Assembly (NCBI GenBank): GCA_021158265.1
Contig: JAGGUY010000037.1
Coordinates: 1 to 38,234, forward strand
Origin: Thermoprotei archaeon
GTDB lineage: Archaea; Thermoproteota; Thermoprotei_A; EX4484-217-1
Direction of reading: 5' to 3'
DNA length: 38,234 bases
Shown here in pieces: positions 4,290 through 5,618 of this stretch (position 1 is the first letter of the stretch; each line of letters opens with the position of its first letter). The translations under genes were made by a program, and so were the position numbers. The notes below the pieces were generated by a model. It searched no databases, had not been told where the DNA came from, and worked only from the letters and a program-made list of their open reading frames with translations.

Positions 4290-4390
4290 CACATCATCGC
4301 CCATGCAAGGGCTCATCCCTTGTAAGCTTCATCAACCTCCAAATTTGCGGAGTCGAGCGCCGCGCGGCATAAACTTATATGTCTCCCGAG
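4290..4390. other. GC-rich structured intergenic segment (possible ncRNA or leader)
   Basis: Perfect hairpin CAAGGG-CTCAT-CCCTTG, 10-nt palindrome GCCGCGCGGC and CTCC..GGAG in an otherwise AT-rich intergenic region between divergent genes. Confidence 0.35.
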
Positions 4391-4409
4391 GCTTAAATGT
4401 TAAACGCAT

Positions 4410-4474
4410 AAGAATGTGATGAGTACTTCCCAGGCTGATGAAGTGATGACGGATCAACAGTCTGAAATTTCTTA
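4410..4474 (+). ncRNA. C/D box sRNA (dual guide)
   Basis: C GTGATGA (4416-4422), 12 nt GTACTTCCCAGG, D' CTGA (4435-4438), 4-nt spacer, C' GTGATGA (4443-4449), 12 nt CGGATCAACAGT, D CTGA (4462-4465); flanked by complementary TAAGAA / TTCTTA. Confidence 0.93.
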
Positions 4475-4478
4475 TGGA

Positions 4479-5618
4479 ATGTTTAGCAAGAAATACTACA
4501 TAATGACTCCTGGTCCTACAGAAGTTCCGCGAGAAATTCTTGAAACTATAGTTTCAGATGAAGCATTGCTTCCAGATTACCAGGAAATATACGATATTGA
4601 TGTTAAGCTTGTTAAGAAACTCCTGAATAACGATGGAGAAGTAGTTATTATGGGCGGCGGGGCTACAGTGGGTTTAGAAGCACTAATATCGACATTTATT
4701 AGTGAGAATTCGAAAGTTTTAGTGCTTTCAGCGGGCTATTTTGGAGAGATATTAGCTAAGCTCATTGAAATGTATCATGGTAAAGTTTATGTTATAAGGG
4801 AGAGACAAGGTAGAATCCCGAGTATTGAAGCTATAGAGAGGTATCTTTCCAAAAATAATGTAGACTATGTGGTATTTGCGCATTGCGAAACATCTGCCGG
4901 AACAATTTTCAATATTGAAGAGATAGCTGAGGTGGTTAAGGAGAATTCTAACGCAAAAATTATCGTTGATGCTGTTTCAACAGCAGGGGCTATACCAATA
5001 AATGTTAATAGCAGTAAAAAGGGAGTAGATGCTGCAGTTTTTGGTGTTCAAAAAGCACTAAACATGCCACCAGGTTTAGCGGTAATAAGTTTAAGTAGAA
5101 ATATTGTTGAAGAAATGGAGAATTTAAAACCCAAAGGCTATTATTTAAACCTTAAGTTATGGCTGAATTTCTGGAAGACCGCAGGAAGACTGCCATCTAC
5201 ACCACCTATAAACCTACTTTACGGTCTAAGGAAGTCCTTAGAGAGAATATTTACTGAAGGAATAGAGAACGTTTATAGAAGGCACATGCTAGTCTCTAGA
5301 AAGCTGAGGAGAGCATTGAGGAAAATGGGCTTAAAGATAGTTGCTGAATCTGATGATATCGCTTCACCTACAGTCACTGTAGTTTACATGCCTAATAGTA
5401 TTAAAAGCGAGATTATTGTTAGAGAGTTATGGGAGAAATACGGTATTCTCGTAGCTAAAGCTTTAGGTGATATTTCAGATAAAGCGATTAGGATAGGTCA
5501 TATGGGAATTACAGCTACACTTGATAACATATTTGCTGTAATATATGCCTTATCAAAGGTTTTAATGAGCAAGGGAGTTAGCATAAATTTAGAAGAAGTT
5601 TTATCGTTACTCACTTGA
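4479..5618 (+). CDS. Class V aminotransferase (alanine-glyoxylate / serine-pyruvate type); start probably 4479 rather than 4416
   Basis: MTPGPTEVP, GGGATVGLEALI, HCETSAGTIFNIEEIAE, VDAVSTAGAIP, FGVQKALNMPPGLA; the in-frame extension to 4416 is occupied by the C/D box sRNA. Confidence 0.88.
   Translation: MFSKKYYIMTPGPTEVPREILETIVSDEALLPDYQEIYDIDVKLVKKLLNNDGEVVIMGGGATVGLEALISTFISENSKVLVLSAGYFGEILAKLIEMYHGKVYVIRERQGRIPSIEAIERYLSKNNVDYVVFAHCETSAGTIFNIEEIAEVVKENSNAKIIVDAVSTAGAIPINVNSSKKGVDAAVFGVQKALNMPPGLAVISLSRNIVEEMENLKPKGYYLNLKLWLNFWKTAGRLPSTPPINLLYGLRKSLERIFTEGIENVYRRHMLVSRKLRRALRKMGLKIVAESDDIASPTVTVVYMPNSIKSEIIVRELWEKYGILVAKALGDISDKAIRIGHMGITATLDNIFAVIYALSKVLMSKGVSINLEEVLSLLT

Follow-up and report, generated by a model that had tools for sequence, protein, structure and literature searches.

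Archaeal guide RNAs direct chemical marking of ribosomal RNA. Their C/D box members carry guides of 10–12 nt in the literature (PMC7994747), and dual guides directed to distant but spatially close sites have been described, conserved predicted sites being most concentrated in helices 3, 18 and 27 (PMC4644070). According to the review PMC7994747, which cites Tripp et al. (2017), the majority of archaeal C/D sRNA genes overlap the end of a neighbouring ORF, 25% at the 3′ end and 7% at the 5′ end; six archaea underlie the latter figure, and start codons were found inside sRNAs. The review also summarises evidence that an sRNA can mature from a longer transcript with no more than its internal k-turn and k-loop, the sRNP protecting its own RNA while the remaining transcript is trimmed, and that 5′ overlap lowers the output of the downstream gene (PMC7994747).

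The locus considered here resembles these systems closely. In the window, by which we mean the whole analysed stretch of 38,234 nt, positions 4416–4465 (+) read GTGATGA-12 nt-CTGA-4 nt-GTGATGA-12 nt-CTGA, or in full GTGATGA-GTACTTCCCAGG-CTGA-TGAA-GTGATGA-CGGATCAACAGT-CTGA (Table 1), so that the exact boxes, 12-nt guides and spacing given by an earlier, sequence-only reading hold letter for letter. Boxes C, D′, C′ and D all occur in order and all are exact, and two 12-nt guides with a 4-nt D′–C′ spacer agree with the ~10–12 nt guides and short spacer expected of a dual-guide sRNA. The archaeal dual-guide sR genes (PMC4644070) share the four boxes, the 12-nt guides, the short spacer and the presence of two 16S guides. 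In all likelihood 4416–4465 is a dual-guide C/D box sRNA, as its sequence, its complementarity to rRNA and its conservation indicate, and we assign a probability of about 0.9 to the reading in which it is a genuine sRNA gene in the 5′ leader of an aminotransferase of this Desulfurococcales-like Thermoproteota metagenome-assembled genome (MAG), operating through the mechanism proposed below.

Table 1. Features of the sRNA–aminotransferase locus in window coordinates; G001 is the related MAG described in the text, and methylation targets follow E. coli numbering
Feature	Position	Strand	Remarks
Putative BRE/TATA ATAAACTTATATG	4369–4381	+	TATA core 4375–4380; predicted transcript start ~4401
5′ flank TAAGAA	4409–4414	+	Possible weak terminal stem with 4469–4474
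Box C GTGATGA	4416–4422	+	Exact RUGAUGA consensus; also longest-ORF start; TGATGA kept in G001
D′ guide GTACTTCCCAGG	4423–4434	+	Predicted methylation target 16S G886
Box D′ CTGA	4435–4438	+	Exact consensus; degenerate CTAG in G001
D′–C′ spacer TGAA (4 nt)	4439–4442	+	Read directly
Box C′ GTGATGA	4443–4449	+	Exact consensus; GTGAGGA in G001
D guide CGGATCAACAGT	4450–4461	+	Predicted methylation target 16S U13
Box D CTGA	4462–4465	+	Exact consensus
3′ flank TTCTTA	4469–4474	+	Possible weak stem partner of 4409–4414
Class V PLP-dependent aminotransferase	4479–5618	+	379 aa from likely true start ATG 4479

When the whole assembly was scanned, the strict layout gave a single exact match in the 886,618-base genome and none in 50 dinucleotide shuffles of it, while a looser scan returned eight candidate layouts, against none in the reversed sequence. 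A covariance-model search, proposed as a check by the sequence-only reading, had a divided outcome. No Rfam family reached its gathering score over the sRNA stretch, but at relaxed thresholds the best models were archaeal C/D sRNAs (sR7, E = 0.0003; snoPyro_CD and sR9, ~0.004), which align end to end over 4412–4468 and all remain below gathering. The box architecture is that of sR7 (RF01310) and sR9 (RF01312); the guides differ, and the scores of 26.4 and 24.8 bits fall under the gathering values of 37 and 36. The flanking complementarity that had also been claimed stands only in part. The box C/D sequences fit a k-turn, and TAAGAA and TTCTTA do form a 6-bp complementarity; three bases separate this from box D, however, so it is not a canonical closing stem for the k-turn, the fold of the sRNA stretch shows no clear gain over shuffles (z = −1.42), and the pairing is not conserved in the DNA alignment with G001. 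A second C/D candidate was seen elsewhere in the window MAG (contig C17, L048:15041–15090, +), 14 bases ahead of a 496-residue ORF, with guides that score 10.3 and 10.6 against the 16S of G001.

No 16S or 23S gene was found in the window MAG (~60% complete), and guide targets were therefore read from the 16S of two relatives, G001 and G003. The D′ guide pairs at 12 of 12 positions (11 Watson–Crick, one G:U) with the 16S sequence CCUGGGGAGUAC of both, the stretch opposite the guide being CCTGGGGAGTAC in each, and its fifth nucleotide is paired in the two genomes. In E. coli the same string occupies 16S positions 882–893 and the base opposite the fifth guide nucleotide is G886, a position in helix 27. 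That helix lies inside the methylation hotspot reported for the sR genes (PMC4644070). Only 2 of 1500 background 12-mers ahead of CTGA in this genome scored as well as the D′ guide, and G886-type guides with flanking boxes were found in 26 of 197 genomes of the class (28 matches, against 2 for a reversed control pattern).

The D guide forms eight consecutive Watson–Crick pairs with the 16S 5′ end CCGGUUGAUCC, the target position included, and its mismatches lie 1 and 3 nt from box D; in the background guide test this pairing was not significant alone. The target is numbered U13 by hand anchoring on TTGATC. The U13-type guide of G001 pairs at all 12 positions, and about 50 matches in genomes of the class (counted by eye from a list, with a loose pattern that itself yields many control matches too) have guides of the GATCAACC type arranged in the same C′-guide-D layout of 23 nt. 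On 23S neither guide matches as convincingly as on 16S. Within 16S, U13 is near helix 27, both being located around the central pseudoknot. The D′ guide passes the one-mismatch/two-G:U scan rule of PMC4644070, though its G:U interrupts the Watson–Crick run, whereas the D guide with its eight pairs falls short of the nine-pair Watson–Crick rule given there. The guide match would rise if the species' own 16S had CCUGGGAAGUAC or an altered 5′ end. What sets the locus apart from the sR genes is the joint presence of a D′ guide for G886 and a D guide for U13; among the relatives examined this pairing did not occur, and each guide had other partners. As for the 16S genes themselves, those of G003 (L055) and G001 (L056) are 1948 and 2196 bases long, whereas the model has 1478 positions; the excess suggests insertions or introns, and the G001 sequence diverges immediately behind GGCTGAAA, close to the G886 target.

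Conservation was assessed upstream of the gene between the window and G001 (record JAPDJU010000005.1, a Thermoproteota MAG of the same family); in a further family member, G002, only a single base of contig precedes the ATG. G001 contains a positional ortholog, ATGATGA-ACGCTTTTCAAC-CTAG-AA-GTGAGGA-GGGATCAACTGG-CTGA, directly before the same aminotransferase. Gene order is shared (tsaC / sRNA / aminotransferase / VTT / NTP-transferase), with tsaC divergent upstream and the VTT and nucleotidyltransferase genes downstream of the aminotransferase in G001. The DNA alignment shows that the TATA block, box C, box C′, the D guide and box D are kept, while the D′ guide and box D′ are not conserved and the D′–C′ spacer of G001 has a 2-nt deletion. 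Since boxes and D guide are kept while the spacer carries an indel and the D′ guide has diverged, conservation acts at the level of RNA rather than of codons, which answers the boxes-versus-codons comparison that the sequence-only reading had put forward; the guide families found across the class agree with this.

No C/D elements were found with the C/D pattern near distant homologues of the aminotransferase (L005–L031). In four other genomes, a U13-guide sRNA stands 6–11 bases before a different small gene (MAYTWEPKWE...), a gene also seen downstream in a fifth genome, so the gene partner is not fixed. Judging from these positions, the leader placement of the U13-guide sRNA is recurrent while the partner gene changes. 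The small gene (loci L148, L149, L150, L167 and L169) encodes 93–95 aa where the full frame was read; its product has C..C..H..H-like residues, and the one protein tested had no Pfam match.

The putative BRE/TATA lies inside a nearly invariant block, GCGCGGCATAAAYTTATATGT, shared by the window and G001. Its counterpart in G001 is ATAAATTTATATG, and the gap to box C is 34 nt in the window and 29 nt in G001; in both genomes transcription would be predicted to start ~10–15 bases ahead of box C. The core is near-palindromic, so this TATA could also serve the divergent gene, and its direction is inferred. From a second TATA-like element at 4392–4399, transcription would be predicted to start within box C, near 4422; this element might be a promoter for the mRNA only.

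The mechanism that we propose would begin at one promoter at ~4369–4381, giving a single transcript from near 4401 that carries both sRNA and mRNA. L7Ae, Nop5 and fibrillarin would assemble on box C/D and C′/D′, and the resulting sRNP would shield ~4410–4470 while the flanks are trimmed. The sRNP would then methylate 16S G886 in helix 27 and probably also U13, which is close to the central pseudoknot, and the aminotransferase would be translated from ~ATG 4479 on the remaining or unprocessed transcript. L7Ae genes were found in the window MAG and in G001; a fibrillarin gene was found in G001 and not in the ~60% complete window MAG. A bolder version of this proposal would make sRNP assembly on the leader a switch that commits the nascent transcript either to a 16S guide RNA or to a translatable aminotransferase mRNA, and thereby ties the capacity for rRNA methylation to a metabolic gene. 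Release of the sRNA would in that case leave a nearly leaderless mRNA, and the sRNA–aminotransferase linkage would be one that two or more genera of the family have retained. We consider such a switch quite improbable. If processing does control the mRNA, ribosome modification and gene expression would be linked in a way open to testing.

A different view takes the C/D elements mainly as a leader k-turn that binds L7Ae and so regulates aminotransferase translation, whether or not they also act as guides. In S. acidocaldarius, L7Ae binds mRNA k-turns in leaders or near start codons and reduces the expression of reporters (PMC5539422), and the C/D k-turn near the start codon is alike here; the position before the same aminotransferase is moreover kept in G001. 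The window element differs from those mRNA k-turns in having two rRNA guides and a full box C′/D′. A k-turn alone would leave the two 12-nt guides, box D′/C′ and the conserved 16S complementarity unexplained, and the U13-guide sRNA precedes an unrelated gene in other genomes. We thus hold this view to be unlikely as the main explanation; regulation through L7Ae is possible, and would not be needed to explain the sequence.

The start of the protein bears on whether the same letters are also translated. The gene product matches Pfam Aminotran_5 (E = 6.8e-26), scores under every NCBIfam equivalog cut-off, and is matched by aminotransferase profiles only from residue 24 or later. That the longest ORF starts at GTG 4416 and that the conserved protein can start at ATG 4479 had both been noted before, correctly. 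In G001 the box D TGA stops the frame, leaving the aminotransferase no start except downstream of it, so the conserved protein starts past the sRNA, near ATG 4479. The three family proteins (window, G001 and G002) share an M/V-F...YIMTPGPT start at this position. The 21-residue extension to GTG 4416, including MSTSQADEVMTDQQSEISYG, is probably an accidental open frame, as the sequence-only reading had suspected in calling the N-terminus an artefact.

Dual use, in which one sequence would serve both as sRNA and as an N-terminus translated from GTG 4416 or ATG 4419, could draw on the open window frame from 4416, on box C standing 63 nt from the start codon in the same frame in both window and G001, and on the start near 4422 predicted by the second TATA-like element. 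It conflicts with the G001 stop, with the 2-nt indel and the keeping of boxes and D guide rather than codons, with the start of the G001 and G002 proteins near the ATG 4479 equivalent, with the late onset of the profile matches and with the lack of any Shine–Dalgarno-like sequence before 4416, and we find it very hard to sustain. Before ATG 4479, too, no Shine–Dalgarno-like site was found by eye. Of the two options originally offered, the sRNA in the mRNA leader is thus favoured and dual coding disfavoured. Chance resemblance within coding or leader sequence, for which one might invoke the TGA/ATG-like words in C and D boxes that are common near gene ends, is exceedingly improbable and largely refuted by the empty shuffles, the strong D′ complementarity and the positional ortholog in G001.

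With the sRNA gene in the leader as the preferred reading, the likely start codon lies 13 nt past box D, which places the sRNA in the leader. Compared with the 5′-ORF-overlapping C/D sRNAs (Tripp et al. 2017, as covered in the review PMC7994747), the present sRNA likewise extends over the start of a called ORF, but the overlap is probably only apparent, the real start being placed past the sRNA by G001. The earlier description of the gene architecture as unusual was overstated, given that PMC7994747 reports ~7% of archaeal C/D sRNA genes as overlapping an ORF 5′ end; this kind of arrangement is uncommon, but is already known from archaea. To the cases in which a protein-coding transcript bears a guide RNA at its 5′ end, the locus adds a clear one, whose sRNA has a positional ortholog in a second genus and guides directed to helix 27 and to the 5′ end of 16S. 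The annotation of the aminotransferase gene receives a small correction, and the case is a warning that gene callers which take the longest ORF may, in archaea, make a false protein N-terminus out of a C/D sRNA.

Between tsaC and the sRNA, a 17-base block (GCTCATCCCTTGTAAGC in plus-strand letters; window 4311–4327, minus strand) is identical in G001. It falls there in a possible 31-codon frame, MERLTRDELEAMMYCARLL..., recognized by eye, and this frame looks broken in the window. A weak match to sR38 (13.1 bits) covers the block in the window only.
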